A DNA stretch of 64,000 nt from a virus. A program made the translations under genes and the position numbers. The first letter of the stretch is position 1. Each line of letters begins with the position of its first letter. The stretch lies in IMG/VR virus record IMGVR_UViG_3300037264_003623, positions 45,084-109,083 of that record; one strand, 5' to 3'. Positions 10,498-33,269 of this stretch are shown one piece after another. A model generated the notes under the pieces. That model was given only the letters and a program-made list of their open reading frames with translations. It searched no databases and was not told where the DNA came from.

Positions 10498-11010
10498 ATG
10501 GTCGAGTACACCCACAAGTCGGCGGTCCTGTCCGAGGACGGGAAGTACCGGTACGTGTTGCGTCGCCAGTGGTCGATGTGCGATGCGACCCAGTTCTTCA
10601 CCCCCGTCTTCATATGCTTAAATCCTTCGACCGCCGACGAATCGGTGGACGACCCGACCGTCCGCAGGTGCGTGGGGTTCGCGAAGGCGTGGGGCTGGTG
10701 TGAGGTGACCATCCTGAACCTCTTCGCCCTGCGCTGCACCGACCCGAGGGGCCTGGTCGGCCATCCCGATCCTCGTGGCCCCGAGAACGAGAAACACCTC
10801 CTGGAGTTCGGAAAGTTCAACCAGGCGATCGCGTGCTGGGGCGTCGGTGGGGCGCTGATGGGAGAGGGGAAGAGGGTAAGCCAGATGCTCGCGTTCCACG
10901 GGTGCGAGCTTCTGCACCTCGGGCTGACGAAGGATGGGTATCCCAGGCACCCGCTGTATCTCCCATCCTCGGCGAGGCCGGTCTCGTGGGTGTGGCGAAG
11001 GAGGATTTGA
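10498..11010 (+). CDS. DUF1643 family protein
   Basis: A 170-residue protein matching the DUF1643 pattern: CLNPSTADESVDDPTVRRC, then GFAKAWGW, NLFALRCTDPRGL and a central GPEN. Length and order of these blocks fit the family, which is common in phages and bacteria but has no established activity. The stop overlaps the next ATG by one base (TGATG). Confidence 0.85.
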   Translation: MVEYTHKSAVLSEDGKYRYVLRRQWSMCDATQFFTPVFICLNPSTADESVDDPTVRRCVGFAKAWGWCEVTILNLFALRCTDPRGLVGHPDPRGPENEKHLLEFGKFNQAIACWGVGGALMGEGKRVSQMLAFHGCELLHLGLTKDGYPRHPLYLPSSARPVSWVWRRRI

Positions 11011-11495
11011 TGGACAGCTACGGTGACACGATGAAGCACATCGGCAGGGTGAGGGAGATCCTGTCGATCGTGGCGGAGAGGCTGAAGAATAGGGGAGTGG
11101 GCCACGACCGGTCCAAGCTGGAGTCTCCGGAGAAGGATGTCCTCGACGAGTTCACCCCGAAGCTGGCTGGGTCCGAGTACGGGGGCGAGGAGTACAAGGG
11201 CTTCCTCAAGGCGATGAAGCCTGCCCTGGACCACCACTACGCGGAGAGCCCTCACCACCCGGAACATTACCCGAACGGAATCAACGACATGACCCTGATC
11301 GATCTGGTGGAGATGATGGCGGACTGGGCCGCCGCGTCAGAAAGACACCAGAGCGGAAGTGTGGCACGGTCGGTCGAGGTGAACCGGAAACGGTTCGGGC
11401 TAACGGACCAGCTTGCCACCATCTTCCTCAACACCTACAGGGAACTGGGACTGCTTCCGAAACCGAACGATGCTGGCGCACAAGTCAAGGAATAG
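11010..11495 (+). CDS. DUF5662 family protein with a substituted 3' end
   Basis: A 161-residue protein. Residues 1-108 fit DUF5662 well: HIGRVREIL, HDRSKLESPE, YKGFLKAMKPALDHHY, HHPEHYPNGI, LIDLVEMMADW. From ASERH onward (base 11334) the sequence QSGSVARSVEVNRKRFGL still resembles the family but differs from the orphan tail at 12246-12380, which continues the same segment. The gene therefore appears to have received a replacement 3' end together with the antisense HNH gene. The end overlaps the HNH gene by 96 bases on the other strand. It is probably still functional. Biochemical role of the family unknown. Confidence 0.85.
   Translation: MDSYGDTMKHIGRVREILSIVAERLKNRGVGHDRSKLESPEKDVLDEFTPKLAGSEYGGEEYKGFLKAMKPALDHHYAESPHHPEHYPNGINDMTLIDLVEMMADWAAASERHQSGSVARSVEVNRKRFGLTDQLATIFLNTYRELGLLPKPNDAGAQVKE
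11334..11344 (+). repeat. 11-base repeat at the left junction of the HNH insertion
   Basis: GCGTCAGAAAG here and at 12246-12256. Both copies are in the same reading frame of the DUF5662 gene; the distance is 912 bases, exactly 304 codons. Joining at the repeat restores one uninterrupted DUF5662 frame. Confidence 0.7.
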
Positions 11496-12185
11496 CGGCT
11501 CATGAATCTTATTCTTCATGACATTCACGATCGAGCAGACGAACTGGAAGTTGCCGATCTCGTACCCGAGCCCGGAATCTATCCTATCAATGGACGGGCG
11601 GTACGGGGATGCCTTGTCCACGATCATCGTGATGCCGGACAGGGCGCAGATTCCTCCCTGGAGGAGGAACTGATGGTCGAGATCCTCCTTTGTCAGATTC
11701 CACTCGTGGCCCCGGCGTGCGGCGCTGAACTTCCAGGCGAAGATCAATCGTCCCGCAAAGTTCTCGGAGCCGGTCCAGTTCGCGGTTCGACCGCCGTGCA
11801 TCTTCATGACGGCGTGGCGAACGCACCGGGGGCACAGATTCCGGTCGAACACCTTCTTTCCGTGCTGGGGCGTATTCCTGATCAGATGCTTGCCGCAATC
11901 TTCGCAGGTGTACTCGATCAGAACGGTTCGGTCCCTGGAGGCGAAGCAGGAGCGGCACCACGACGAAAGACCGTCGCTGGAGCGAGAGTTCTTCGTAAAC
12001 GACGCGGCGGGTCTCATGACCCCGCAATGACTGCATGTCTTGGACTTTACCAAGCGCGGCGGTTGTCTCTGCGCCTCGACTTGGCACCGGTGCGAGCAGT
12101 AGACGCGGGTGTGGCACCTCGGATGGAAGACTTCTTTGCATGTGGGACAGATGATCGACGTGAGGTGATGATAGATTCGGGCCAT
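11400..12185 (-). CDS. HNH homing-type endonuclease, antisense in the DUF5662 gene
   Basis: A 261-residue protein on the minus strand with AAGGAGG before its ATG. The N-terminal two thirds contain several CxxC pairs (CPTC, CSHC, CSHCG, CRSC, CEDCG, CPRC) that form small zinc domains for DNA recognition. The C terminus has the HNH block CALSG followed by PSIDRIDSGLGYEIGN and N...KN, typical of phage free-standing HNH nucleases. Its coding sequence ends inside the substituted 3' end of the DUF5662 gene. It has its own promoter. Composition is visibly less GC-rich than the flanking genes, consistent with recent arrival. Confidence 0.85.
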   Translation of the reverse strand: MARIYHHLTSIICPTCKEVFHPRCHTRVYCSHRCQVEAQRQPPRLVKSKTCSHCGVMRPAASFTKNSRSSDGLSSWCRSCFASRDRTVLIEYTCEDCGKHLIRNTPQHGKKVFDRNLCPRCVRHAVMKMHGGRTANWTGSENFAGRLIFAWKFSAARRGHEWNLTKEDLDHQFLLQGGICALSGITMIVDKASPYRPSIDRIDSGLGYEIGNFQFVCSIVNVMKNKIHEPLFLDLCASIVRFRKQSQFPVGVEEDGGKLVR

Positions 12186-12215
12186 GCTTCCTCCTTGTTA
12201 AAAGTTCCTATCTCT

Positions 12216-12243
12216 ATTATACCTGATAGCAGCTACAAGGCAA
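12216..12243 (-). promoter_or_regulatory. Promoter of the antisense HNH gene
   Basis: On the minus strand TTGCCT (12243-12238), 16 bases, TATAAT (12221-12216), then a leader with AAGGAGG and ATG at 12185. Confidence 0.6.
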
Positions 12244-12245
12244 TA

Positions 12246-12380
12246 GCGTCAGAAAGGCACATCACGGGGGATGTGCTCAAGAGCATCGAGATCAACACGA
12301 AGCGGTTCTCGATCTCTCCCCAGCTCGCGGCGATTCTGGTGAACACGGTGAGGGAGATATGGCCGAAGAAGGAGGGGTAG
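12246..12380 (+). pseudogene. Orphaned original 3' end of the DUF5662 gene
   Basis: Starts with the second GCGTCAGAAAG and reads ASERHITGDVLKSIEIN, then KRFSISPQL and a normal family C terminus, ending at TAG. It has no start codon of its own and continues exactly the frame interrupted at 11344. It marks the right edge of the HNH insertion. Confidence 0.8.
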
Positions 12381-12617
12381 ATGCCGATTCTCAGCATCGA
12401 GATCACCTGCTTGAAGACGCGGTGCGAGGGGTGCTACCACTGCCACTATGGGAAGGAGCGCAGGCTTGTCCCGGACATCACCTGTTCTCTCTTCGGTAGG
12501 GCGCTCCAGGCCCCGGGCGGGAGCCCGCTGCGCCTGAAGCAGTGCGTAGCGGCGGAGGCAAGGGCGCACCTTACCGAGACGGCGCGTAAGGCCCTGGCGA
12601 TGTGCGGGGTGGTGTGA
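12381..12617 (+). CDS. Hypothetical cysteine-rich protein
   Basis: A 78-residue protein starting directly after the orphan tail, with GGAGGGG in front. The pattern C...CEGCYHCHYG in the first 26 residues suggests a metal-binding knuckle; two more cysteines follow. No family recognised. One-base overlap with the next gene. Confidence 0.65.
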   Translation: MPILSIEITCLKTRCEGCYHCHYGKERRLVPDITCSLFGRALQAPGGSPLRLKQCVAAEARAHLTETARKALAMCGVV

Positions 12618-12799
12618 TGTGGACCGTGATCCGCGACGAGAAGGGGATGGCCGTTGCCCTCGGGTGGGACCCGAGGCCGGATCCCCCGAAACTGAGGATT
12701 CCCAAGCAGCGGCCCTACCCTCAGGCGGAGCGGTGGTGCCGTGAACGCGGGATGCTCGACGGGGACGGGTGCCTCAAGGAGGAGGAGAAGTCGAAGTGA
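12617..12799 (+). CDS. Hypothetical small protein
   Basis: A 60-residue protein, ATG 12617 overlapping the previous stop. Basic, proline-rich centre and lysine/glutamate end. No recognisable domain; kept because of the tight start-stop overlaps on both sides. Confidence 0.55.
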   Translation: MWTVIRDEKGMAVALGWDPRPDPPKLRIPKQRPYPQAERWCRERGMLDGDGCLKEEEKSK

Positions 12800-12840
12800 A
12801 CATCATCGACGGGAAGTGGCGGAAGTACAAGCGGGACTAG
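12796..12840 (+). CDS. Possible 14-residue minigene
   Basis: GTG overlapping the previous stop (GTGA), then NIIDGKWRKYKRD and TAG immediately before the next ATG. GGAGGAGAAG lies upstream. It fits the stop-start chain of this operon but is too short to prove. Confidence 0.35.
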   Translation: MNIIDGKWRKYKRD

Positions 12841-13524
12841 ATGGTCGCGCTGAAGGAGCCGGTCCAGGTCGTGAAGGTCGGCTACGAGGTTGGCCGGGAC
12901 GAGATCATGGAGCAGCTCGCGAGGGAGGCGAGCCCGGTGCCCGCGGATGCTCCGACCGGTTTCGAGGGGGACTACTTCCCGTTCAAGGACTTCGTCTTCC
13001 ATGTCGTGTCGGGGCACAACCTTCTCTGGAAGTACTGGAACGATAGGGAGAACTTCAGGAAGCATCTCGACTCGCTCCTGGGGGACGCCCTTGGATCCGC
13101 CGACATCGGCGAGGTCCTCCAGTCCATCGACATGGCGGTGGTGAGGCGGATGGTCCGGGCGCGGGTCCGGCAGGAGCTTGTCGGGAATCGAAAGCGGATC
13201 CTCTGGACCGAGCCGATCGAAGGTGATGCGGATGAATCGTGGAGGGGGCCCTGGGCGGTGCGCGGGTGGAGGATGGCGACCACCGGGACGTACACCCCCG
13301 GGTATGGGGGTGGGTATGGGGGTGGGGAGGATGAGGAGGGACCCTCGATCAGGAACGTGAAGCACCATGTCCTTCTGCTGGTCGAATGGGTCGGGGAAGG
13401 CGGGCTTAGGGGGGGCAGTTACGTCGTCGAAAAGGGGAACACTTACCCCTGGACGAATGTGGCGACGGCGAACACCCTGATGGAGGAGGATCGGTCATTG
13501 ATGTTGGTCGATCCGTTTGCATGA
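12841..13524 (+). CDS. Hypothetical protein
   Basis: A 227-residue protein. A helical N-terminal half (residues 15-115) leads to a glycine/tyrosine-rich insert (TYTPGYGGGYGGG) and a beta-rich C terminus. The ATG directly follows the minigene stop without a clear ribosome site, so translation is probably coupled. No family recognised. Confidence 0.7.
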   Translation: MVALKEPVQVVKVGYEVGRDEIMEQLAREASPVPADAPTGFEGDYFPFKDFVFHVVSGHNLLWKYWNDRENFRKHLDSLLGDALGSADIGEVLQSIDMAVVRRMVRARVRQELVGNRKRILWTEPIEGDADESWRGPWAVRGWRMATTGTYTPGYGGGYGGGEDEEGPSIRNVKHHVLLLVEWVGEGGLRGGSYVVEKGNTYPWTNVATANTLMEEDRSLMLVDPFA

Positions 13525-13901
13525 TGAGCGAGTGCGTGAGGTGCGGGTACTGCTGCACGGTAGCCTCGTGTGGTTTCGGGGAGTGGAACCCGACGCTGGG
13601 GCAGTGCAGGTTCCTGACCGGCGACAACCTCTGTGGCAAGCACGAGGAGATCTTCGTCATGGAAGGATCCGACGTCAGCCCCGCGTTCGGGAAGGGGTGT
13701 CCCTCCTCGCTGTTCAACGAGCGGCGGGACGCGAAGATTAGGGGGGACTGGCCCAAGACATCGCAGGGGAAGGACATCGACATGAGCTTGGAGTTCGTTG
13801 GCCGGTTTCTCCGGTTCCCGGACGTGAACGAGGATTTCGAGTTCGGAGGGTACGCCTACGTCTACAAGGGCAACCGGGTGTGGGAAAGGAAGAAGGGATG
13901 A
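13521..13901 (+). CDS. CxxCxxCC-type cysteine-cluster protein (YkgJ-like)
   Basis: A 126-residue protein beginning with CVRCGYCCTVASCG, then C...CGKHE and GCPSSLFNERR. The CxxCxxCC start followed by three spaced cysteines is the pattern of the YkgJ-like zinc or iron-cluster family and of a common phage subgroup. Biochemical activity is not established. Coupled by ATGA on both sides, next to RNase HII. Confidence 0.75.
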   Translation: MMSECVRCGYCCTVASCGFGEWNPTLGQCRFLTGDNLCGKHEEIFVMEGSDVSPAFGKGCPSSLFNERRDAKIRGDWPKTSQGKDIDMSLEFVGRFLRFPDVNEDFEFGGYAYVYKGNRVWERKKG

Positions 13902-14470
13902 GCCTACTTGTGGGGATCGACGAGGTGGGGCTCGGGCCTCTCGCGGGTCCCGTTGTGGCGGCGGCGGTCCTGATCGAGGACGGCGCGGTGCCCGGGGTGC
14001 GCGACTCGAAGAAGGTGCCGGAAGGGCGGCGGTACGCCCTGGCGGAGGAGATCCGGCAGAAGGCCAAGTGGTTCCACATCGCCCGGCGGGGGCCGGAGGA
14101 CGTGAACGCCCACAACACGATCTGGTGCTGGCGGGCGGTCCTATACGAGGCGGCGAAGGCGGCGCACCTCGCCTGGCCGGAGGTGGAAATCCTGATCGAC
14201 GGGCCGGGGAAGAAGGAGTGGCGGGGGACGCTGACCTACGCCCGGTTCGTCCCCGGCGGCGACGACAACGTGTACCAGGTTGCGGCGGCCTCCCTGTTGG
14301 CGAAGGCGGCGAGGGACCTGGAGATGATCGAGATGGGGGAGAAGTTCCCGAAGTACACCTTCGGCCACCACAAGGGATATGGAGTTCCGGCCCATCTGGC
14401 CGAGATCCGGCGGTGGGGACTGTGCGAGATCCACCGGCGCGTGCCCGCGATGCACGCGATCGAACGGTGA
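13898..14470 (+). CDS. rnhB: Ribonuclease HII
   Basis: A 190-residue protein with the RNase HII signature: GIDEVGLGPLAGPVVAA (catalytic D and E), DSKKV, a central ILIDG aspartate, DDNVYQVAAASLLAKAARD, and FGHHKGYG. The length is normal for the family. It cleaves RNA in RNA-DNA hybrids, removing primers or single ribonucleotides, and together with the ligase at 36339 suggests the phage provides part of its own lagging-strand repair. ATG 13898 overlaps the previous stop. A Thr tRNA follows four bases after the stop. Confidence 0.93.
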   Translation: MSLLVGIDEVGLGPLAGPVVAAAVLIEDGAVPGVRDSKKVPEGRRYALAEEIRQKAKWFHIARRGPEDVNAHNTIWCWRAVLYEAAKAAHLAWPEVEILIDGPGKKEWRGTLTYARFVPGGDDNVYQVAAASLLAKAARDLEMIEMGEKFPKYTFGHHKGYGVPAHLAEIRRWGLCEIHRRVPAMHAIER

Positions 14471-14474
14471 GGAC

Positions 14475-14546
14475 GCCAGCGTGGCGCAACGGTAGCGCGG
14501 CGGTTTTGTAAATCGCAGGTTGGGAGTTCGAGTCTCCCCGCTGGCT
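14475..14546 (+). tRNA. tRNA-Thr(UGU)
   Basis: Seven-base acceptor GCCAGCG pairs with CGCTGGC, D arm GCGC...GCGC, anticodon loop TTTGTAA gives UGU, T loop TTCGAGT. CCA is not encoded. A run of six T follows (14552-14557). It stands apart from the main tRNA operon. Confidence 0.92.
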
Positions 14547-14662
14547 CTCGGTTTTTTCAGGATTCCTTGCCCAATCCCCGGGTTCTCCGTCATTCCTTGT
14601 CACGGATTCTCGTACATAGGGATGTGAGGGGCGAAGTGAAACGCCCCGAAAGGAGGACGGAG

Positions 14663-14872
14663 ATGGGCAGGTTCTACGACTTTTTCGATGAGGTGGACGG
14701 GATCGGCAACCTAGTCAACGCCGAGGCGATCCTGGGGGAGAGGTACTTCCAGGAGGGGTACAGGGGCAAGGCGCTCCGCCGGAAGGTCCGGTGGGCGATG
14801 ATCATGATCCGGCACATGGATCGGCTCGACATGGCCGACGTTGTCCCCCTCTGGGAGATGGAGGTGGGGTAG
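14663..14872 (+). CDS. Hypothetical small protein
   Basis: A 69-residue protein. AAAGGAGG lies seven bases before ATG 14663, which decides the start over upstream in-frame codons. Helical, with a basic centre (RKVRWAMIMIRHMDRLD). No known family. Confidence 0.7.
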   Translation: MGRFYDFFDEVDGIGNLVNAEAILGERYFQEGYRGKALRRKVRWAMIMIRHMDRLDMADVVPLWEMEVG

Positions 14873-14902
14873 AATGGGAGGTGGACCTTCGGGGGCCGAC
14901 CG

Positions 14903-15073
14903 ATGGAAGACAGAGACAAGCCCTGGTACCACTGGCAGATCCGGTGCCAGGAGGATGGGGACGACGGGTGGACGTGCATCGCTAACATCAACGGGGGCAA
15001 GGCGGGCCCCTGCATGTTCAGGAGCAGGGGTGAGGCGGAGAGGAAGTGCCCCGTCTACAAGCCGGAGGGATGA
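14903..15073 (+). CDS. Hypothetical 56-residue protein
   Basis: Starts MEDRDKPWYHWQIRCQ and ends CPVYKPEG, with four cysteines spaced across the chain that could bind a metal. Codon choice (GC in third position) matches neighbours. Its stop lies in the loop of the terminator hairpin. Confidence 0.6.
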   Translation: MEDRDKPWYHWQIRCQEDGDDGWTCIANINGGKAGPCMFRSRGEAERKCPVYKPEG

Positions 15074-15088
15074 CCTCCGATTTTTTTT
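15063..15088 (+). terminator. Rho-independent terminator
   Basis: CGGAGG (15063-15068) pairs with CCTCCG (15074-15079) around the stop codon, followed by A and eight T. It closes the preceding operon directly in front of the next promoter. Confidence 0.8.
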
Positions 15089-15098
15089 GTTTTCCCCC

Positions 15099-15126
15099 TT
15101 GACGAAAGGGACGAAACGCATATAAT
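15099..15126 (+). promoter_or_regulatory. Class I promoter
   Basis: TTGACG, spacer AAAGGGACGAAACGCA, TATAAT, then ATGAGTGTCAAGAGCGAAGGAG. Contains the direct repeat GACGAAA-GG-GACGAAA. Confidence 0.88.
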
Positions 15127-15154
15127 ATGAGTGTCAAGAGCGAAGGAGATGATG

Positions 15155-15385
15155 ATGGCCGAGACGACGACCCTGACGGCGGAACAGCAGAAGGAGTTCG
15201 TGAGGCTGGTGGGGGCGCTCTCCCCGGAGAACCTGTACTGCGACGGCGAGATCTCGCACGCCCAGGGCGTCAAGAAGTACAAGGCCCTGCGGAAGCAGTG
15301 GTGGGCCCTGGAGATCAGGGTCGGCCGCAAGGTGACCGAGGACGAGGTGTGGGCGGCCCACATGGCCGAGAATCGAAAGGAGTAG
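15155..15385 (+). CDS. Hypothetical protein, class I operon leader gene
   Basis: A 76-residue protein. Three in-frame ATGs lie at 15149, 15152 and 15155; the third has the best distance from GAAGGAG. Helical and charged, no cysteine cluster beyond one residue, no known family. Confidence 0.7.
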   Translation: MAETTTLTAEQQKEFVRLVGALSPENLYCDGEISHAQGVKKYKALRKQWWALEIRVGRKVTEDEVWAAHMAENRKE

Positions 15386-15741
15386 AGGCCCCCTGGAAGA
15401 GGGGAGGGAGGGGCGCTGGCCGATCCGCAGGTAGCCGGTGCCCTATGCTCCGGGGGATGCGGGCCCCTGGCTTGTCCTTCCACGCAGGCCTCCGTCGCCC
15501 CTACGGTGGCGGAGGACCTGCGGGTGGGCTCGGTTCTCCTCTCTTTCAGCGGGCTTCTGGGGAAGCGGACAGAAAATGATCTCAGGGGGCCAGCCAGCGC
15601 CGGTTCCCGCCACGGTACTTGGAGTCGTGGGATCGGGGCCGATAAGCGTGGGCCGTGGAGGCCAGCGGCAGGAGGGGGGCCAAGCCTCTGAATGTCGTCG
15701 CGGGTTCGAGGCCCGTCCCTGGGGCCAGATGCGTGGGGGTC
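15386..15741 (+). ncRNA. Gene-free structured segment, possible non-coding RNA
   Basis: No convincing gene over 356 bases on either strand. A long hairpin at 15483-15522 pairs CGCAGG and an adjoining 11-base arm with GGTGGCGGAGG and CCTGCG (17 pairs, one bulged A, five-base loop). Near the right end, GCGGG-TTCGAGG-CCCGT (15700-15716) is a perfect tRNA T arm followed by CCCTGGG-G-CCA, but I could not fold a matching D or anticodon arm. It would be transcribed from the 15099 promoter. A tRNA-like or tmRNA-like relic and a new small RNA are both possible. Confidence 0.35.
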
Positions 15742-17789: not shown

Positions 17790-17823
17790 GCCGGGGTGGT
17801 GAAGTTGGCAGACGCGCTGGCAT
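17790..17823 (+). pseudogene. 5' half of a split tRNA-Leu
   Basis: GCCGGGG acceptor strand, leucine-type D arm and the 5' anticodon stem CTGGC, then an abrupt end where the next tRNA begins. The matching 3' half lies at 18501-18555. Confidence 0.85.
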
Positions 17824-17907
17824 GTTGGAGTGGCGTAATGGCTAACGCACCGGACTCAGGATCCGGGTCCGAAAGGACACCTGTGGGTTCGACTCCCACC
17901 TCCGACA
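17824..17907 (+). tRNA. tRNA-Leu(CAG)
   Basis: Acceptor GTTGGAG/CTCCGAC (one U-G pair), anticodon arm CCGGA-CTCAGGA-TCCGG, variable arm GTCC/GGAC, T loop TTCGACT. CCA not encoded. It lies between the two halves of the split tRNA-Leu, just before the HNH promoter. Confidence 0.92.
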
Positions 17908-17915
17908 TTAAAGAC

Positions 17916-17944
17916 TTGGCAGACTCATAGGAACGGGTTATAAT
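17916..17944 (+). promoter_or_regulatory. Promoter of the HNH gene in the tRNA operon
   Basis: TTGGCA, 17-base spacer, TATAAT, then a 26-base leader with AGGAGG before ATG 17971. Confidence 0.7.
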
Positions 17945-17970: not shown

Positions 17971-18504
17971 ATGAGAAGGGAAGAGGATCTGCGAAGGGTG
18001 GTTTCCGAGTGCGTGTCTTTTGCCCAGGTTCTTCGACGTTTGGGATTGAAGCAGGCTGGCGGAAGTCAGAGCGAGTTGAAGAAGAGGGTGGAGGCGCTCG
18101 GGATAAGCACAAGTCATTTCCTTGGCAGGAGGACGAACTCGGGGGCGCACCATCGCGGCGGGTGCCCCAAGAAGGCTTGCTCGGAGGTATTGGTTCGTAG
18201 CGTGAGGCGGCATCCCTACCTTCTTCGCCGGGCCTTGCTCGAATCGGGGAGGGAGTACCGCTGCCAAGGAGACGGTTGCCCGGTAAGGGATGAATGGCTT
18301 GGGAAGAAGATCGTCTTGCAGGTGGATCACGTTGATGGAGACAGGAGCAACAATAGGGCTTCCAACCTTCGATTCCTTTGCCCCAACTGTCATTCGCAGA
18401 CAGGCAACTGGGGAAAGAACGAAGGGGGAACGGATCTGACCACTAACGCGAGGCAGTGCCAGAACTGGAGACGGAAACGCCGGGAAGCATCGGGCACGGT
18501 TTGA
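17971..18504 (+). CDS. HNH homing-type endonuclease inside tRNA-Leu
   Basis: A 177-residue protein. The N terminus (FAQVLRRLGLKQAGGSQSEL) reads as a small helix-turn-helix-type DNA-reading part. The C terminus holds the HNH block LQVDHVDGDRSNNR, NLRFLCPNCHSQT with H-N-N residues and a CxxC zinc knuckle partner (CQGDGC). The stop codon falls within the first bases of the 3' tRNA half, so the gene fits tightly between the halves. The gene is less GC-rich than flanking genes. Confidence 0.9.
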   Translation: MRREEDLRRVVSECVSFAQVLRRLGLKQAGGSQSELKKRVEALGISTSHFLGRRTNSGAHHRGGCPKKACSEVLVRSVRRHPYLLRRALLESGREYRCQGDGCPVRDEWLGKKIVLQVDHVDGDRSNNRASNLRFLCPNCHSQTGNWGKNEGGTDLTTNARQCQNWRRKRREASGTV

Positions 18505-18555
18505 GGAGCCAGTGCCCGAAAGGGCGTGCGAGTTCGACCCTCGCCCCCGGCACCA
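18501..18555 (+). pseudogene. 3' half of a split tRNA-Leu
   Basis: Loop end TTGAGGA, stem GCCAG (pairs with CTGGC at the 5' half), long variable arm, T arm GCGAG-TTCGACC-CTCGC, CCCCGGC (pairs with GCCGGGG of the 5' half), discriminator A, CCA. Joining the halves gives a normal tRNA-Leu with anticodon GAG whatever exact junction is chosen. Confidence 0.85.
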
Positions 18556-24805: not shown

Positions 24806-25272
24806 TGCCCAGGGAAGACCCGATCCGCGAGTACTTCGAGATCGATCTCCCCGACAAGAGATTCCGTGAGCAGAACGAGCGCCTTCAGCGGAAGATCGAC
24901 GAGGGCATCGGGATGAGGGGGAGTCCGCCGCGTTTGAGGAAGACATGGTGGATCTCCACTCCAGGGATGGATTCCAAACGTGCGTTCGGTCTCTCCGATG
25001 CCATTGAGGCGCTCGACTCCCCGGACATGATCTCGGATATGGGCCACATCCCTCTGGTCCGGTGGAGCGGGTGTTTGTGGCACCTGATGGTTTCCTCCCA
25101 CTGCAACCCGGCCAGGGTGGTGTCGGCGTGCGGAGAAACCTTCCCGATGGGAGAGAGGGTGGAGGGGAAACTGGAGATCGAGCCGAACCGGAACCTGACC
25201 TGCATGGGGTGCTGGACCCACGTCGAGGCGGCCAAGGTCGCCCTGATCCTGGCGGGGGAGAGCGATGAGTGA
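24802..25272 (+). CDS. Hypothetical protein
   Basis: A 156-residue protein with GGGAGGGG before ATG 24802/24805. The C-terminal half has VSACGET and CMGCWTH, again the CG...CxxC order found in neighbouring small proteins. Overlaps the methyltransferase start by eight bases. Confidence 0.65.
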   Translation: MMPREDPIREYFEIDLPDKRFREQNERLQRKIDEGIGMRGSPPRLRKTWWISTPGMDSKRAFGLSDAIEALDSPDMISDMGHIPLVRWSGCLWHLMVSSHCNPARVVSACGETFPMGERVEGKLEIEPNRNLTCMGCWTHVEAAKVALILAGESDE

Positions 25273-26896
25273 GGCCGACCGCTTCGCCGGATTTCCATCG
25301 CCCTCGTGGGCATCGCCCGCTGGCTGGGCCCGGCTTCACCTGGGGAACTGCGTCGAGGTGATGAGGTCCCTGCCTGAGTCCTCGATCGACGCGATCGTGA
25401 CCGACCCCCCGTATGGTATTGAGTTCATGGGGAGGGATTTCGACAAGTTGGGGCAGGGGCCGCAGATGCAGGAATGGCACCGGGCGTGGGCGGTCGAGGC
25501 TCTTCGAGTGGCTAAACCCGGTGCCTTCCTTCTTGCCTTTGGCGGAACCCGGACTTGGCATCGACTTGCGTGCGCGATTGAGGATGCAGGATGGGAGATC
25601 AGGGATACTCTCATGTGGATGTACGGGCAGGGATTTTCTAAAAGCATGGATGTCTCGAAGGCGATCGATAAGGCGGCGGGGTCTGATCGGGAGAAGATCC
25701 CGGAGGGGAACTCCGTAAAGCGGATGGTGCCGGGGGCGGACCAATACAAGACTAATTCCTGGATCAAAAGCGACGATCACATGTACCAGTCGGGGCGGGA
25801 GGTTCCGGTGACGGAGGCCGCGAGGACTTGGGAGGGCTATGGCACATCGCTAAAACCAGCCTGGGAGCCGGTCGTGGTCGCCCGGAAGCCCCTGGCCGGG
25901 ACGGTGGTTGATAACGTCCTGAAGCACGGGACGGGGGCGCTGAACATCGATGGGACGAGAATCAGGATCGCGCCCACTTCTCAGGATGGCTCTCGTAGTA
26001 GTCCTGATGATAGCATTTGCGACACATGCCCTTCGCGTGAGGTTTCCCATACTGTCCGCAGCGAGGACATTCACATGGAGGCCTCGTCTGCTCCTCAACG
26101 CGACGGTCGTAGCGTCCTTCGACCCAGTGAATCCGAATATGAGATCGAGAATCAATCACGCATAGATTCTCGGGCGAGTCGTCGTCCTTCCTACCGTTTA
26201 GATGATGGACTTGCTCATGCGGAAGAAGAGCCCGACCAAGCATACGTTCAGCAACGACTCGGTGATACCGAGTCTCCCGTCCGTCAACTAAGCAGCAGGT
26301 GTATCCACGCGGGTCTTTCCACATGTTTACATCGTACTACACCACATGTTGAAAGTCAAGGCCGCTTCCCCGCGAACGTGATCCACGACGGGAGCGAGGA
26401 GGTGGTAGGGATGTTCCCCGATCGCAAGACGACCTGGATCGATCCGTCTCATGCGAACAACCGGGGCGGGGATTTCCTGGGGGCTCTTGGGCATCCCGGG
26501 ATGCAGGGGTTCAACGACTCCGGCTCCGCCGCCCGCTTTTTCTACACGTCGAAGGCTGATGCGTCCGAGCGGTGGTTCTACTGCCGGATCTGCCAGGGGG
26601 CCTACCCCGCGTCCGCGGAGCAGGGGCACCACCACGGGAAGGGGCTGGGGAAGTGCCAGCACATCTTTAGACACCCGACCGTGAAGCCCTTGTCTCTATG
26701 CTCTTGGCTCTGCCGCCTCGTCTCGATGCCAGGGGGGAGCGTGATCCTCGATCCGTTCATGGGGTCGGGCTCGACGGGCGTGGCGGCCCTCGTGGAGGGC
26801 CAGCGGTTCGTTGGGGTGGAGATGGACGGGGAGTTCTTCGCCCTATCGGCGGCCCGGGTCGCGGACGCGAAGCGCCAGCCGGGCCTCTTCGACTGA
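25265..26896 (+). CDS. DNA methyltransferase (beta-type N6A/N4C) with an in-frame antisense HNH insertion
   Basis: A 543-codon frame. The N-terminal part has motif IV TDPPY at residues 46-50; the C-terminal part has HPTVKPL and motif I DPFMGSGSTG at 496-505, with VGVEMD after it. Motif IV before motif I is the beta-class order; known enzymes of this class methylate adenine N6 or cytosine N4. Residues about 236-360 do not look like a methyltransferase: they are polar, compositionally foreign, and are the reverse reading of an HNH gene. Joining ...NIDGTRI to GRFPANVIHD gives the normal family sequence. The frame stays open across the insertion, so a full-length, interrupted enzyme could still be made. 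Confidence 0.88.
   Translation: MSEADRFAGFPSPSWASPAGWARLHLGNCVEVMRSLPESSIDAIVTDPPYGIEFMGRDFDKLGQGPQMQEWHRAWAVEALRVAKPGAFLLAFGGTRTWHRLACAIEDAGWEIRDTLMWMYGQGFSKSMDVSKAIDKAAGSDREKIPEGNSVKRMVPGADQYKTNSWIKSDDHMYQSGREVPVTEAARTWEGYGTSLKPAWEPVVVARKPLAGTVVDNVLKHGTGALNIDGTRIRIAPTSQDGSRSSPDDSICDTCPSREVSHTVRSEDIHMEASSAPQRDGRSVLRPSESEYEIENQSRIDSRASRRPSYRLDDGLAHAEEEPDQAYVQQRLGDTESPVRQLSSRCIHAGLSTCLHRTTPHVESQGRFPANVIHDGSEEVVGMFPDRKTTWIDPSHANNRGGDFLGALGHPGMQGFNDSGSAARFFYTSKADASERWFYCRICQGAYPASAEQGHHHGKGLGKCQHIFRHPTVKPLSLCSWLCRLVSMPGGSVILDPFMGSGSTGVAALVEGQRFVGVEMDGEFFALSAARVADAKRQPGLFD
25962..26324 (-). CDS. HNH endonuclease nested antisense in the methyltransferase
   Basis: A 120-residue protein on the minus strand. 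Residues 1-70 carry the HNH block: YHRVVAERMLGRALLPHEQVHHLNG, DDDSPENLCV, SHIRIH in separate pieces. A C-terminal zinc knuckle CPRCGQYGKPHAKGMCRKC may bind DNA. It has its own promoter and an ATG on the predicted +1. Its stop lies in the methyltransferase sequence, so the gene fills the insertion. Less GC-rich than flanks. Confidence 0.85.
   Translation of the reverse strand: MWKDPRGYTCCLVDGRETRYHRVVAERMLGRALLPHEQVHHLNGRKDDDSPENLCVIDSRSHIRIHWVEGRYDRRVEEQTRPPCECPRCGQYGKPHAKGMCRKCYHQDYYESHPEKWARS
26331..26359 (-). promoter_or_regulatory. Promoter of the nested HNH gene, start on the ATG
   Basis: Minus strand TTGACT (26359-26354), 17 bases, TACGAT (26336-26331), six bases, ATG at 26324. No ribosome site. 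Confidence 0.5.
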
Positions 26897-27843: not shown

Positions 27844-27848
27844 TCGCC

Positions 27849-28118: not shown

Positions 28119-28135
28119 TCTTTTCGGATTTCCCT

Positions 28136-28163: not shown

Positions 28164-28190
28164 ATACACAGTGAGAGTGGGGGACGGGAG

Positions 28191-28456
28191 ATGCCAAAGG
28201 TTGCAAAGACGTACATCCGGCCCTCTCCGAGCGGACAGGGCTGGAGGTCCGCCGGGAGGGCGGGGAGTCGCATCACGTCCGGGCGGTCGGGCATGACCGG
28301 GACACGGGCGAGCCCCGTCTGGCGTGCGACTGCGAGGGGTTCCGGTTCCGGCGGCGCTGCTGCCACATCGAGGAGGCCGAGGCCGCCGCGAACTTCGACG
28401 AGGAGATGATGCACGGCGAGATCGAGGTCGACTGGCCGTGGCCGTTCACGGATTGA
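28191..28456 (+). pseudogene. SWIM zinc-finger protein with a frameshift
   Basis: The start MPKVAKTYIRPSPSGQGW reads from ATG 28191. The continuation in the -1 frame gives VRREGGESHH, then CDCEGFRFRRRCCHIEEA, the CxC...CxH pattern of a SWIM finger, and an acidic end at TGA 28454-28456. One missing G near 28242 (TGGAGG instead of TGGGAGG) would explain the break. SWIM fingers bind DNA or proteins. It may be a real mutation, a recoding site or a sequence error. Confidence 0.6.
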
Positions 28457-28466
28457 GGAGGACGCG

Positions 28467-29099
28467 ATGATCACCAGGTCGAGCGACTGGCTGAAGAACG
28501 ACTCCAGGTTCAAGTCCTGGGGCAAGAAGGTCCGCCCCCAGGACGTGGACCTCTCGAAAGAGAACGGATACGCCCTCGGGGGCGCGTGGGCCCGGTGGGA
28601 CGAGAGCGTGGCCCTGGGGGCCGGGGAGTTCCTGGTCGTGGCGGCGGAGACGGGGAGCAGGGCGAGCCACGACTACGACTACGCCCTCATCGAGGGAGGA
28701 GAGACGGCGCGGTGCCTGTTCAACGGGCAGGACAAGGCCAAGGGCCTTCCGGCGGAGGAGTGGAGGGCACTGAAGGAAGCGGCCCTGAAGGACCTGCCCG
28801 AGGATCAGCGGGCCAAGGCGATGAACTCGACCCTGTATCGGTTCGCGGCGGTCATCCATCACCTGGGCCAGTCGGAGCGCGTGGCGAAGGCCCTCGGGGA
28901 CATCCAGGAGGAGGTCCGGGGATCGGCCTGGTGCGGGATCTTCAGGGGGAAGGACGGCAACGGCACCCCCCGGACGATCCTCGGCACGCACGCGGTCGCC
29001 GAGACGCGGGACGAGGCATACGAGAAGGGTAACGCCGATCCGGACTTCCTCGGGGTGGTGAAGGTCGAGGTCGTGTGGGGCGGCAAGATGCCGGAATGA
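28467..29099 (+). CDS. Hypothetical protein
   Basis: A 210-residue protein with GAGGAG before ATG 28467. Parts ASHDYDYALIEG and FAAVIHHLGQSERVAKAL read as mixed alpha/beta; the C terminus has TILGTHAVAETRDEAYEKG. No family recognised. ATGA overlap with the next gene. Confidence 0.7.
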   Translation: MITRSSDWLKNDSRFKSWGKKVRPQDVDLSKENGYALGGAWARWDESVALGAGEFLVVAAETGSRASHDYDYALIEGGETARCLFNGQDKAKGLPAEEWRALKEAALKDLPEDQRAKAMNSTLYRFAAVIHHLGQSERVAKALGDIQEEVRGSAWCGIFRGKDGNGTPRTILGTHAVAETRDEAYEKGNADPDFLGVVKVEVVWGGKMPE

Positions 29100-29386
29100 C
29101 GATGACGAAAGAAGAGCTGGATCTTTGCTTCCACCGGGCGCATCAGGAGGTGGAGGACTTCGCGGTGAAAGCCGCGATCCCGTGGGAGGACGGGAAGAAG
29201 GTCGAGGTCACCACGGAGCAGGCGGCGGCCTTCCTCCGGTGGCAGGCCCTCCAGCTCAACGGCGAGTGGGATGCCGAGGCGCTGAAGGATGCCCGCTGGT
29301 GTCTCTGTACCAAGACGGAGCTTATCAAGGGAGGGCCGGGCTGGGTCCTAGTATGGGACGGGGGCGTCCAGGGGGCGGTTCGATGA
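29096..29386 (+). CDS. Hypothetical protein
   Basis: A 96-residue protein, helical with two tryptophans and a CLC segment. Start and stop both overlap neighbours by ATGA. No known domain. Confidence 0.62.
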   Translation: MTMTKEELDLCFHRAHQEVEDFAVKAAIPWEDGKKVEVTTEQAAAFLRWQALQLNGEWDAEALKDARWCLCTKTELIKGGPGWVLVWDGGVQGAVR

Positions 29387-29673
29387 TCGTCTTCAAGCAT
29401 CTTGAGTACCGGATCTACAAGGTGAAACGGCACCGTCAGTACAGCTACGACCTCCACCGGTACGTCGAGAAGCGGGAGTACGACTACGAGCATCCCGTCG
29501 TGAAGACGCGGGCGCATTCGCATCTCTTCATCCGGGAGGAGGGGATAGGTGGATGTCCCCGTGCGGGCACGAGATCGAGCACAAGGCGGCCTTCGGGGGT
29601 ATCCGCCCCGAAGACCTTGATCACGCAGTGGAGATTTTCGTCGGTAGGGAATCGGTCATCCTTCCCTGCCTGA
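29383..29673 (+). CDS. Hypothetical protein with uncertain 3' end
   Basis: The first 58 residues (MIVFKHLEYRIYKVKRHR...) look genuine: basic, tyrosine-rich and beta-like. The remaining 38 overlap the next gene in another frame and look like shadow sequence, so a frameshift or a truncated stop near 29545 is likely. Confidence 0.5.
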   Translation: MIVFKHLEYRIYKVKRHRQYSYDLHRYVEKREYDYEHPVVKTRAHSHLFIREEGIGGCPRAGTRSSTRRPSGVSAPKTLITQWRFSSVGNRSSFPA

Positions 29674-29741
29674 AGTGCAGGGATTGGCTGCGGAGGAACA
29701 AGGAGGCGGTGCTCGCCGCGGAGCACCTGAATAGAGAATGA
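29553..29741 (+). CDS. Hypothetical small zinc-type protein
   Basis: A 62-residue protein starting MSPCGHEIEHK after GGGAGGAGGGG. CLKC near residue 40 with the N-terminal CGH may bind zinc. ATGA overlap with the next gene. Confidence 0.6.
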   Translation: MSPCGHEIEHKAAFGGIRPEDLDHAVEIFVGRESVILPCLKCRDWLRRNKEAVLAAEHLNRE

Positions 29742-30016
29742 TCGTGATCAGAAACAAGGGGACGATCTTCGAACGTGGGGTAGTGCATGTCTTCGTCCGG
29801 CAGGGATCCGAGTTCAGGGCTCTGTGTGGGGTCAAGGCCGACTTCCCCGCCTCCGAAATGCGGACGCTTGCCGAGGACATCCTGTCAGAGGACGGGGCCG
29901 AGCGGGCCGTCGAGAGGTTCAAGAGGGTTCGGGATGGGTGCGAGAGGTGCGCGGTCTGGCTGGAGAAGAACTGGGATGCCCTGGTCGTGGCGGAGCGCCT
30001 GGCGGCGACGAGGTGA
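29738..30016 (+). CDS. Hypothetical protein
   Basis: A 92-residue protein: beta-rich start (GVVHVFVRQGSEFRALCG) and a C-terminal CERC in a helix. ALCG...CERC is the same spacing type as the small proteins at 20639 and 22646. Confidence 0.65.
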   Translation: MIVIRNKGTIFERGVVHVFVRQGSEFRALCGVKADFPASEMRTLAEDILSEDGAERAVERFKRVRDGCERCAVWLEKNWDALVVAERLAATR

Positions 30017-30019
30017 TTC

Positions 30020-30469
30020 ATGTTCGTCCTGGTGGGGAAGGATCTGGTGGACCTGGTGACCCGGCGCATCCCCGAGGTCGTCGAGAAGGTGATGCAGAGG
30101 GGCCACTCGAAGTGGTGCGATAGCGCGAGGATCGTCCCCTGGTCGGCGGGTGACGAGGTGGGGGCGACCCTTCGGGTTTCCATCAAGCCTTCCTCCGTTC
30201 GGGCCTCGCGTGGGGACTTCGCCCTCTCATGGGGCGTGGCGCTCAACGGGCAATCGAAGATGGAGATCGCCCTCTATGACGGGGACATGGCGGGCCTTCT
30301 TCACGAGTCACTGTTCGGTCGGGATGGGCAGGTGGACGACGTGAGGCTCGACCTCGACTCGGCCATCAAGGGGAGGGTGGGGTGCGCGGACGTGAATGTC
30401 CTCGTGAGCAGGGTCGTCGAGAAAGTCCGGAACGCGGTGGTGGCCCACAAGATGATGGAGGGGGCATGA
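30020..30469 (+). CDS. Hypothetical protein
   Basis: A 149-residue protein, mixed alpha/beta without a cysteine cluster. Helical ends (DLVTRRIPEVVEKVMQRG; LVSRVVEKVRNAVVAHKM) flank a beta-rich centre. No family recognised. Confidence 0.68.
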   Translation: MFVLVGKDLVDLVTRRIPEVVEKVMQRGHSKWCDSARIVPWSAGDEVGATLRVSIKPSSVRASRGDFALSWGVALNGQSKMEIALYDGDMAGLLHESLFGRDGQVDDVRLDLDSAIKGRVGCADVNVLVSRVVEKVRNAVVAHKMMEGA

Positions 30470-30738
30470 CGAGGTGCAAGTTCGACCGGTCGAACAAGGG
30501 GGGCGTGACCTACGAGAAGCCCTGCCGCGTATGCGGGCTGGGGATCATGCGGGCGCTTCGGGACGACTGCCCGTACCGCAAGCTCGAAGGGAAGCTCGCG
30601 GTCCTCATCAAACGGCACCTCGCCTACTACGAGGGGATCGGGTTGGCGCTGAAGGACGTGAGGAAGTATCGGAGCACCGGGGAACCGGCGCTGTCGGACC
30701 GAGAGGAGATCGAGAGGTTGAAGGGGAGGAAGTCATGA
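30466..30738 (+). CDS. Hypothetical zinc-type protein
   Basis: A 90-residue protein: PCRVCGLG, DDCPYRK and LAYYEGIGLALKDV. The last segment resembles member 3 of the tandem zinc family. ATGA overlaps on both sides. Confidence 0.65.
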   Translation: MTRCKFDRSNKGGVTYEKPCRVCGLGIMRALRDDCPYRKLEGKLAVLIKRHLAYYEGIGLALKDVRKYRSTGEPALSDREEIERLKGRKS

Positions 30739-31076
30739 GCGAGCAGGGTGTCAGTCTGGAGTTCTTCGCCGGGGCGTGCAAGTTGCTCGCCAGGAGCTTC
30801 GGGAACCGGCTCATGGACGTGTCCACGGCGAACGCGATCAAGGACCATTTCGCCGACATCGAGGCCCTCTACAAGACGCTGGAGATGGTCCCCAGGCGGA
30901 AGCCGGGGCACAAGGGCAAGAACGCCTACTACTGCACCTGCTGGGACAGGGACGCCTGGGTGGAGCCGATAGGCGGGGATGCGGTGAAAGACAAGAGCGT
31001 CCGGCGGGGCCGTTCCGACGGGCCCCTCCACGAGCGCGGGAGCGAGAAGTGCTGGGTCGGGAAGGAGAAAAAGTGA
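30735..31076 (+). CDS. Hypothetical protein
   Basis: A 113-residue protein: helical first half, then NAYYCTCWDRDAWVEP with CTC, and a basic tail. No family recognised. Confidence 0.62.
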   Translation: MSEQGVSLEFFAGACKLLARSFGNRLMDVSTANAIKDHFADIEALYKTLEMVPRRKPGHKGKNAYYCTCWDRDAWVEPIGGDAVKDKSVRRGRSDGPLHERGSEKCWVGKEKK

Positions 31077-31483
31077 ACGAGGAGAGGCTGTTCTCGATGC
31101 TCCAAGAGCTGACGGAGGCCGTCGTCGCCCTCGCGAAGGCGGTCGAGGCCGGGCGCAAGGAGACGGAGCGTCTCTGTGACCTGATCCAGCCGATCACCGA
31201 GAAGGTATTGGATTCCGAGGACGAGGGGAGGGTTGCCAGGGCCATCATGGGCCCCCCGAAAGTGGGGATGATGCTTCGCAACGACTACGCGGCCCTCAAG
31301 GACGCGATCGAGAATCCCCCCGATGCGGGCAAGAAGATCAGTGCCATAAAGGCCGTCCGGTCGGCGACGAGAAGTAGCCTGAAGGACGCGAAGGACCTGG
31401 TCGACAAGTATTGGGACACGCTGGAGAGAAGGCGGAATCTCCTCGACATGTTCGATGTTGGTGAGGCACCTTCCCCCGTATGA
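31073..31483 (+). CDS. Protein with ribosomal L7/L12 C-terminal-like segment
   Basis: A 136-residue protein started at the GTG overlapping the previous stop. Residues about 88-115, KKISAIKAVRSATRSS then LKDAKDLVDKYW, resemble the KxxxIKxVRxxTxLxLKEAKDLV core of the L7/L12 C-terminal domain, which contacts translation factors. The N-terminal half is a helix rich in E and A that could form a coiled coil. A role in acting on host translation is possible but unproven. Confidence 0.6.
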   Translation: MNEERLFSMLQELTEAVVALAKAVEAGRKETERLCDLIQPITEKVLDSEDEGRVARAIMGPPKVGMMLRNDYAALKDAIENPPDAGKKISAIKAVRSATRSSLKDAKDLVDKYWDTLERRRNLLDMFDVGEAPSPV

Positions 31484-31728
31484 CGAGGCAGTGCGCGTGG
31501 TGCGGGAACTTCGACGGCCAGTCTTACTGGAAGGTCGTCGGCGGGATCCTGGGCGGGAAGAGCGGCAGGGCGCGGGGCGTCTGCCGCCTACGGGATTTCC
31601 ATGCGATCGTCGTGGACGAGCTGGGTAATAGGAATGAGATTGATGTCTCCTGCTGCTCGAAGAAGGAGGCGGACCTCTGGGCGAAGGCTCTCGGGAAGGG
31701 GGAGATCAAGTGGGTCCTGGGGCTCTGA
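31480..31728 (+). CDS. Hypothetical zinc-type protein
   Basis: An 82-residue protein with CAWCG near the start, VCRL, and SCCSKKEADLWAKAL near the end. Overlaps the next gene by 19 bases. Confidence 0.62.
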   Translation: MTRQCAWCGNFDGQSYWKVVGGILGGKSGRARGVCRLRDFHAIVVDELGNRNEIDVSCCSKKEADLWAKALGKGEIKWVLGL

Positions 31729-32018
31729 TCCTGCCGAAGGCGTTCTTCGACGCCCTGACTGCCGGGAGCCTGCATCGGAGGGACGTCGGGTTGTCGGTCG
31801 CGTTGCGCGACGATGCGACGATCCTCGAAGTCATCGCCGGAGGGGAGACTCATTCGTTCGCGATCTCCCGCGCCAAGAAGAACGGGAAGATCCACATCAG
31901 CGCCCTCTTCACCGAGCATCTATGGGCGGAGGATGCGAGGGGGTGGGAGGTGGCGGGCAGGACCATACGCGGGGCGGTGGAGGCGGCATGGGTCGGATCC
32001 GTCTTCGCCAACGATTGA
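31710..32018 (+). CDS. Hypothetical protein
   Basis: A 102-residue protein from GTG 31710. Basic beta-rich centre (FAISRAKKNGKIHIS). No other start gives a longer conserved-looking frame. Followed by a T run and a class I promoter. Confidence 0.6.
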   Translation: MGPGALILPKAFFDALTAGSLHRRDVGLSVALRDDATILEVIAGGETHSFAISRAKKNGKIHISALFTEHLWAEDARGWEVAGRTIRGAVEAAWVGSVFAND

Positions 32019-32040
32019 CCTGCTTTTTTTCGGTTTCCTA

Positions 32041-32068
32041 TTGACGAAAGGGAGAAAACAGATATAAT
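32041..32068 (+). promoter_or_regulatory. Class I promoter
   Basis: TTGACG, spacer AAAGGGAGAAAACAGA, TATAAT, then ATCGGTGTCAAGAGCGAGGAGG. A T run lies at 32024-32030. Confidence 0.88.
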
Positions 32069-32095
32069 ATCGGTGTCAAGAGCGAGGAGGATGAA

Positions 32096-32497
32096 ATGGG
32101 CTGGTTGTTCATGTTCGAGATGGCGACCCGCAAGGCGATGATCGCCGATCGGATCGCCCCCCAGGAATGGGTGAACCCGGACGGGACCAAGTGCTCCCAA
32201 ACGACCCTCGCCCACACGTTCAAGGGGTCCCCCTTCGCGGGGGTCCTCTACTACGTGCGCGAGACCCGGATCGGCGAGAAGACCGATCGGTTCATCCAGA
32301 TCGACCTCCTCAGGTACTCCAAGACAGACGGCCCCGGGTGCTGGGGCTACAAGGACATGACAGAAGAATGCGGACCAAACCACGTATCATGCCCCCGCAG
32401 TTATTTGGGCATGGTTCCTTGCCCTGACAATCAGATCGCAAGAGCATGGCGGGGTAGAGTATTGGCATGGCATGATGAAAGATACAAAATTACTTGA
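32096..32497 (+). CDS. DUF6927-like protein with a substituted 3' end
   Basis: A 133-residue protein. The start MGWLFMFEMATRKAMI, the middle LAHTFKG...FIQIDLLRY and WGYKDMTEE fit the small family I know as DUF6927 (name from memory). After TEE (base 32368) the sequence changes to CGPNHVSCPRSYLGMVPC in an AT-richer style, whereas the expected family end MGPCYYGCPLKYLEMVPC lies orphaned at 33114. So the gene has a replacement tail delivered with the HNH gene that follows. Probably still functional. Confidence 0.82.
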   Translation: MGWLFMFEMATRKAMIADRIAPQEWVNPDGTKCSQTTLAHTFKGSPFAGVLYYVRETRIGEKTDRFIQIDLLRYSKTDGPGCWGYKDMTEECGPNHVSCPRSYLGMVPCPDNQIARAWRGRVLAWHDERYKIT

Positions 32498-32523
32498 CAG
32501 CGGGGGGAATGATTTTGTATCCT
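32494..32523 (+). promoter_or_regulatory. Promoter of the HNH gene at 32530, start on the ATG
   Basis: Consensus TTGACA at 32494-32499, 18-base spacer, TATCCT at 32518-32523, six bases, ATG 32530. The -35 box overlaps the stop of the preceding gene. No ribosome site. Confidence 0.6.
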
Positions 32524-32529
32524 AAACAC

Positions 32530-33114
32530 ATGAAAACAAAAACATGTAGCCGATGCGGCAGGAACCTTCCGGCCACAGAGGAATTTTTCTTCAGAAAAAG
32601 CAAGAGGACCGGCTGGTTGTCGGGGTGCCGGGACTGCCGAAGAGTTTTGTCGAGGGATGCTTATCGCAATCGCAACAGAATCAATCACGGAAGGCTGCAA
32701 AAACTGGAGGAGCTTAGAGTCTGGAGGAGCAAGTACGGCCTCCGGAAAAAGGCGGCACAGAGGTCACATGACCCAATCGGTTATTATGCGTCTGTCATGT
32801 TCAATTCTTCTTACAGGGCATCTCTTCGTAAGAAGATACCGCATACCATTACCAGGGCATGGATCCGGCAACAGTTAGACAAGGGGATATGCTCGGCAAC
32901 TGGGCTACATTTTAGATTTCCGAAACCAGAGGAAGGGAACCTTATAGGGCGGGATCCTTACCGGCCTTCACTTGACAGAATAGACAACACCAAGGGGTAC
33001 ACCCCGGATAATAGCAGAGTAGTTCTTTGGTGGTACAACGTCGCCAAGGGGCCTTGGTCGGACGAAGAGATGCTGGTCTTGGCGGAGGCGGTAGTCCGTT
33101 ACGTAAGACGATGA
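32530..33114 (+). CDS. HNH homing-type endonuclease behind the DUF6927-like gene
   Basis: A 194-residue protein. N-terminal CSRCGRNLPATEEFFFRKSK and CRDCRR form a zinc domain of the type seen in phage HNH enzymes; the C terminus has CSATGLHF, then PSLDRIDNTKGYTPDN and WWYN.AKG, the HNH block. ATG 32530 is preferred; an earlier TTG is part of the -35 box. The gene is clearly AT-richer than its surroundings, as is the substituted tail upstream. Related in layout to the 11400-12185 enzyme. Confidence 0.88.
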   Translation: MKTKTCSRCGRNLPATEEFFFRKSKRTGWLSGCRDCRRVLSRDAYRNRNRINHGRLQKLEELRVWRSKYGLRKKAAQRSHDPIGYYASVMFNSSYRASLRKKIPHTITRAWIRQQLDKGICSATGLHFRFPKPEEGNLIGRDPYRPSLDRIDNTKGYTPDNSRVVLWWYNVAKGPWSDEEMLVLAEAVVRYVRR

Positions 33115-33269
33115 TGGGGCCCTGCTACTACGGGTGCCCCCTCAAGTACCTGGAGATGGTGCCCTGCCCGGACAGTCAGTACGCCCGCGAGTGGCGGGAG
33201 GTGGTGAAGCGGTGGTGGGCGGTCCAGCGGGAGCGGAGGCAGGAGCGCAAGGCGAGGCAATCGGCGTGA
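33111..33269 (+). pseudogene. Orphaned original 3' end of the DUF6927-like gene
   Basis: From ATG 33111/33114 it reads MGPCYYGCPLKYLEMVPC and then a basic helix, the normal end of the family. The first ATG overlaps the HNH stop, so it might be translated as a 51-52-residue peptide. Removing 32369-33113 restores one continuous gene. Confidence 0.78.

Follow-up and report, generated by a model that had tools for sequence, protein, structure and literature searches.

We analysed a 64,000-nucleotide stretch of a virus genome (hereafter the window), which corresponds to positions 45084-109083 of the 109,083-base IMG/VR virus record IMGVR_UViG_3300037264_003623 (G000), whose guanine-cytosine (GC) content is approximately 63%. 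Homing-type genes are abundant in this record, with six clear HNH matches by the profiles that were tried. Three loci are at the centre of this work: a DUF5662 gene (case A), a transfer RNA (tRNA) gene for leucine and a phrog_21047-like gene (case C), each of which is associated with an HNH endonuclease gene (Table 1). In cases A and C, the HNH gene is flanked by a full-length host gene on one side and by a displaced 3' fragment of the same family on the other, while in the tRNA case both halves of the resident gene are displaced and a complete tRNA-Leu accompanies the nuclease. Each insertion is located at a motif that is conserved in its target family. We regard these loci as probable homing elements of a phage that, like the WHO elements of yeasts, restore the gene that they enter by supplying a substitute for the part that they displace.

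Table 1. Positions (window numbering) of the genes, gene parts and putative promoters at the loci discussed in the text.
Feature	Positions	Strand	Basis
Case A, whole DUF5662 gene, putative chimera	11010..11495	+	PF18907 E 1e-32; alignment to 89 homologs
Case A, parts of this gene	resident 5' part to ~11348; candidate substitute 3' end ~11349-11495	+	homolog alignment
Case A, left junction patch GCGTCAGAAAGACAC	11334..11348	+	14/15 repeat at 12246-12260
Case A, HNH gene (PacI/endonuclease VII-like)	11400..12185	-	phrog_1035 E 3e-26
Case A, HNH promoter-like site TTGCCT-16-TATAAT	12216..12243	-	as good in 4/300 shuffles
Case A, orphan DUF5662 3' end lacking its own 5' part	12246..12380	+	homolog alignment, self-comparison
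tRNA case, orphan tRNA-Leu 5' half, ending in the anticodon loop	17790..17822	+	
tRNA case, complete candidate substitute tRNA-Leu(CAG), directly adjoining the orphan half	17823..17908	+	ARAGORN; Rfam RF00005 57.6 bits; fold
tRNA case, HNH promoter-like site TTGGCA-17-TATAAT	17916..17944	+	as good in 0/300 shuffles
tRNA case, HNH gene (phrog_10822, HNH_3)	17971..18504	+	phrog_10822 E 8e-46
tRNA case, orphan tRNA-Leu 3' half	18505..18554	+	acceptor pairs with 17790-17796
Case C, whole phrog_21047-like gene, putative chimera	32096..32497	+	PHROGs, relatives, GC
Case C, parts of this gene	resident 5' part to ~32357; low-GC candidate substitute 3' end ~32358-32497	+	relatives, GC
Case C, HNH promoter-like site TTGACA-18-TATCCT	32494..32523	+	as good in 6/300 shuffles
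Case C, HNH gene (PacI/endonuclease VII-like)	32530..33114	+	phrog_3322 E 1e-24; ATG 32530, stop 33114
Case C, orphan 3' end (putatively displaced, native)	33111..33269	+	self-comparison; intact relatives L115, L116
Case D, tail duplication	6957..8136	+	6957-7046 vs 8032-8121, 70% identity over 30 amino acids
Case B, host DNA methylase, frame open across the HNH insert	25265..26896	+	
Case B, HNH_3 gene inside the methylase frame, antisense	25962..26324	-	

Duplicated gene ends around the HNH genes

An unbiased comparison of the parent record with itself, which covered every reading frame, recovered both of the protein cases, and the tRNA case was confirmed, which agrees with the arrangements and positions that were reported in a first-pass annotation of this DNA. 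In case C, positions 32372-32470 and 33117-33215 share 58% identity over 33 amino acids (E 2e-8), and in case A, positions 11328-11447 and 12240-12359 share 55% identity over 40 amino acids (E 1e-9); each pair flanks an HNH gene. Based on the comparison with intact relatives of the phrog_21047 kind (L021, L115 and L116; an example reads WGYKDMEESMGPCHYSCP), the substitute in case C starts just after GYKDM and the orphan just after WGYKDM. The start of the orphan in case A coincides with the motif (D)WKAASERH, which is conserved in the full-length DUF5662 homologs (alignment of 89 sequences from INPHARED and IMG/VR).

The GC content of case C falls from 64% in the 5' part of the gene to 48% in the substitute tail and 51% in the HNH gene, and rises to 69% in the orphan tail. 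The upstream gene thus looks chimeric, with a 3' end that matches the nuclease gene in composition, and this pattern is the strongest evidence that the tail may have been substituted rather than simply duplicated. The low GC content that the first-pass annotation had ascribed to the cargo as a rule was found in case C but not in case A, where both tails have 57%. The two tails in case A also fit the family profile equally well (43.4 and 42.9 bits). However, 69 of the 89 homologs, which are not independent of one another, resemble the orphan tail more closely than the substitute, and because of this mild support the orphan is probably the displaced, native DUF5662 end. Exactly at the boundary, the two copies are identical at 14 of 15 nucleotides (GCGTCAGAAAG[A/G]CAC), compared to 5 of 15 before this patch and 56 of 105 (53%) after it; with the peptide kept unchanged and codons used as in the phage, the probability of a match of at least 14/15 is P=0.003.

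These data bear on a simpler explanation, according to which a tandem duplication came first, an HNH gene entered between the paralogs and a deletion removed the 5' part of the second one, so that the nuclease would not be the cause of the tail. Nearby paralog pairs are indeed common in phage DNA, with 71 partial-duplicate pairs at 0.25-2.5 kb in approximately 2.1 Mb of fetched related phage DNA, and both the equal GC content of the case A tails and the duplicated tail of case D, which has no HNH gene, fit such an origin. On the other hand, the substitute tail in case C shares its GC content with the HNH gene and not with its own 5' part, and the orphan in case A starts exactly where its near-identity to the upstream copy starts. 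An HNH gene was present at or between the members of 25 of the 71 pairs, but these 25 consisted of full-length paralogs, HNH-HNH pairs or tRNA-derived frames. Each of the two endonuclease VII-like HNH genes in the genome lies in such a tail duplication, whereas the other 71 pairs include no tail duplication around an HNH gene. Moreover, split tRNAs that retain both of their halves require an insertion. We therefore consider a tandem duplication to be an unlikely origin of the three cases.

The enzymes of cases A and C match phrog_1035 and phrog_3322 (E 1e-22 to 3e-26) and, as far as can be judged from their sequences, are placed with PacI and the endonuclease VII-like HNH enzymes. They have no Pfam HNH call; their assignment to HNH comes from PHROGs, the alignment and a PacI profile match (A7 profile against PacI 3ldy, E 6e-7), and an HNH motif with its conserved catalytic positions is present (PHROGs, alignment). 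The model of the case C enzyme was of high confidence (predicted local distance difference test 90) and had PacI as its best PDB match, which was weak (E 2.5e-3). The nuclease of the tRNA case belongs to a different family. Each of the three HNH genes has its own promoter-like site, graded against 300 shuffles each, from which separate transcription may be predicted. In case A, the HNH gene is antisense to the DUF5662 host gene and its 3' end overlaps the substitute tail. Such an antisense orientation and the separate frames rule out inteins for cases A and C and the tRNA case. No introns were detected either; an Rfam scan of positions 6000-34000, in which group I and group II introns were sought, revealed only tRNAs above the family cut-offs.

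Recurrence of the tRNA form in other phages

The broken tRNA of the window is Leu-like by its arms, although its joined halves allow too many anticodons for the isoacceptor to be named. Relatives of the HNH gene at this locus were found in the tRNA arrays of unrelated phages (Suspvirus, Otagovirus, Vibrio phage D69 and a Variovorax phage) as well as in those of IMG/VR contigs. Among 60 non-redundant loci that had a tRNA within 130 bp of a phrog_10822-like HNH gene, the nearest tRNA was tRNA-Leu at 35, compared to 15.2 expected and a maximum of 27 in 20,000 trials in which tRNAs were drawn at random from each array's own composition. At about ten loci, tRNA-Leu was present on both sides of the HNH gene. 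A search for empty sites revealed split tRNAs at three other phage loci (L005, L228 and L250/L255). The layout of L228 is that of the window, i.e., a 5' half, a complete tRNA-Leu(GAG), the HNH gene and the 3' half. L005 is its mirror image, with a truncated 5' half, the HNH gene and then a complete tRNA-Leu(CAG), whose own 5' half is nearly a copy of the truncated one across the nuclease.

It could be argued that HNH genes are merely tolerated in tRNA arrays and that the halves are ordinary decayed tRNA genes, especially since decaying tRNAs are to be expected in the tRNA-rich arrays in which these nucleases reside. The excess of tRNA-Leu over the composition of the arrays speaks against this, as do the paired 5' and 3' halves that flank the HNH gene with their acceptor pairing intact and the near-exact repeat of the 5' half on either side of the nuclease in L005; we consider this explanation to be very improbable. 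Whether the phrog_10822-like HNH genes form widespread homing elements that target the anticodon loop of tRNA-Leu and carry a replacement tRNA-Leu or half of one, thus splitting the resident tRNA without loss of its function, is in our view an evenly balanced question. If so, they would be the first tRNA-restoring homing element that works without splicing.

At four other loci (L201, L203, L204 and L205), the end of a phrog_10822-like HNH gene either directly abuts a tRNA-Leu(tag) or tRNA-Gly gene or falls within its first bases, and in some of them the tRNA supplies the stop codon of the HNH gene.

Proposed mechanism and the evidence against it

The mechanism that we propose is based on the anatomy of the loci, the homology of the copies, the matching GC content of the tail and the HNH gene in case C, the patch in case A and the presence of the tRNA form in other phages that are unrelated. 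The HNH enzyme would cut a conserved point of its target gene in a co-infecting phage, namely the DWKAASERH codons of DUF5662, the GYKDM codons of phrog_21047 or the anticodon loop of tRNA-Leu. The broken end would then be repaired from a donor that carries the HNH gene beside a diverged version of the target gene, and the donor's 3' end, its whole tRNA-Leu or its 5' half would be copied along with the nuclease. The side of the donor gene on which the HNH gene lies would determine which part is restored (the 3' end in cases A and C, the whole tRNA in the window and the 5' half in L005). The recipient's own end would be stranded beyond the HNH gene as a useless orphan, and the resulting gene would be a complete chimera that this nuclease probably can no longer cut; self-immunity through the substitute part is plausible. 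Cleavage, homing and resistance, as well as the foreign copy in case A, are what we infer from these arrangements, and we consider the donor-repair mechanism as a whole to be probable.

Later decay of the orphan would leave an ordinary free-standing HNH gene beside an intact gene, and this could be the reason for the rarity of orphans. Many free-standing HNH genes lie beside conserved phage genes and tRNAs, and each of them could be what remains of such a replacement after the orphan has been lost, in which case the 3' end of the neighbouring gene would differ in its history from the 5' end.

Several observations weigh against this mechanism. Neither a second tail nor an HNH gene of this type was found near any of approximately 90 DUF5662 homologs, and no duplicated tail flanked the HNH gene at any of the 80 IMG/VR loci with related HNH genes. 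The survey of approximately 2.1 Mb of related phage loci, which included these 80 loci and 80 DUF5662 loci, revealed no second example of the protein-tail form, and neither did a genome collection that was scanned with the HNH alignment. As a class, the protein-tail elements rest on two examples from one genome. The foreign copy in case A is weakly supported, since the tails are equal in GC content and in their fit to the profile. No near relative of the phage was found (megablast of positions 9001-34000 against INPHARED gave no match and hence no close relative with an empty site), so the insertions had to be deduced from distant homologs. Among the split tRNAs, L250 has no obvious substitute in its insert. 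Finally, the insert in case D consists of helix-turn-helix-like and ribbon-helix-helix-like open reading frames with no HNH gene. Because a tail was duplicated there without an HNH gene, this case warns that the anatomy of a duplicated tail is in itself no proof of a nuclease mechanism.

A further alternative is that phages recombined in a generic way, by illegitimate or one-sided exchange, so that any foreign segment starting with a homologous gene part would leave a chimeric gene and an orphan end; the HNH gene would then be a frequent passenger rather than the cause. Case D, in which regulator-like genes take the place of the HNH gene, fits this view. Nuclease genes have been reported at the boundaries of genetic exchange between phages (PMC10448857). 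However, three of the four inserts contain little beyond one HNH gene and the restored part and are located at a conserved motif, as homing predicts, and the HNH family of the tRNA case is associated with its target repeatedly and specifically. Generic recombination thus appears improbable, slightly more so than a tandem duplication.

The proposal of the first-pass annotation that a free nuclease brings along a copy of the part that it displaces fits all three anatomies, and further phages provided independent examples of its tRNA variant, whereas case D shows the same outcome without an HNH gene. The annotation had further suggested a search for HNH genes with flanking orphan ends, in which many hits would support the class, whereas a lack of them, or tails that are always duplications without an HNH gene, would refute it. 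The tRNA form did recur, but for the protein form no additional case has come to light so far. Duplication without a nuclease counts in part against the protein form through case D and is not applicable to the tRNA form.

Other features of the window

A fourth HNH gene is present in the region 11010-33269 and represents a different solution to the same problem. In this case B, an antisense HNH gene lies within a DNA methylase frame that stays open, for which synonymous shuffling gives P(open) ~0.16. In Mycobacterium phage MKC-IRE-02 (L286), an antisense HNH gene that is 58% identical occupies the same place in a methylase that is approximately 39% identical. Related HNH genes were also found in the sense direction in the methylases of Cheoctovirus phages (Starcevich, L295, 1501-1737; ShiLan, L296, 1501-1668), where they are possibly inteins or fused domains.

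Inspection by eye revealed intein-like insertions in a portal-like protein (window 58110-61250, with HNH_3) and in a ribonucleotide reductase and a DnaB-like helicase (G000:C1:4052-7261 and G000:C1:8442-11045). Window positions 1-1567 together with the preceding 720 bases contain a tandem gene duplication (48% identity over 264 amino acids), and a tail-fibre-like protein with internal repeats is encoded at 52782-53968.

Comparison with known systems

The first-pass annotation had presented the restoration of a displaced gene end as a third answer to the problem that introns and inteins solve by splicing. This claim to novelty does not hold, as the principle is already known from two fungal systems. 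In the WHO elements of Torulaspora and Lachancea yeasts, for which the same principle was argued with experiments and cleavage was shown, a free-standing, independently transcribed and sometimes antisense endonuclease gene lies between a full-length chimera and a displaced 3' fragment; no splicing is involved and the substitute 3' end confers resistance (PMC7282813). The WHO nuclease is derived from an intein (HO-like), has a zinc finger and targets FBA1 in yeast nuclei, whereas the elements described here have HNH enzymes and are found in phage genes and also in a tRNA. The elements of the window work like WHO but are not members of the WHO family, because their proteins are of the HNH type and do not combine an HO-like intein domain with a zinc finger.

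Even before WHO, substitute C-termini were inferred from hybrids for the mORFs of fungal mitochondria, with examples in Allomyces (atp6), Glomus (atp6, atp9, cox2 and nad3), Rhizopus (atp9) and Mortierella (cox2) (PMC3630166). These share with the window a foreign C-terminus that continues the reading frame of the resident gene, a nuclease gene and a displaced native C-terminus; they differ in that the nucleases are of the LAGLIDADG or GIY-YIG type, the targets are mitochondrial genes and the nuclease reading frame is sometimes fused in frame (PMC3630166).

Two systems in phages are also close. According to a review of T4-like phages (PMC2988022), their free-standing mob and seg genes encode HNH or GIY-YIG homing endonucleases, undergo co-conversion of their flanks and have their target in a neighbouring gene, and segB is both located in and targeted to a tRNA region. 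They differ in being placed between genes or in splitting them (Aeh1 nrdA, T4 gene 60), and in the passages of the review that were consulted no displaced orphan tail was found for them. SegB resembles the tRNA case in that homing endonuclease genes are associated with phage tRNAs, but it is a GIY-YIG enzyme that is linked to a tandem amplification of tRNA-Tyr, with no split tRNA and substitute (PMC13096335). In the open-access literature, subscription journals being outside the search, there was no report of the tail-restoring form in phages, with HNH enzymes or with tRNAs, and the phage, HNH and tRNA versions of the principle have apparently gone unreported before. A structural class of homing element that is known from fungi would thereby come to include elements of phages, with HNH enzymes as nucleases and tRNA genes among the targets, and its mechanism becomes testable in a fast genetic system.

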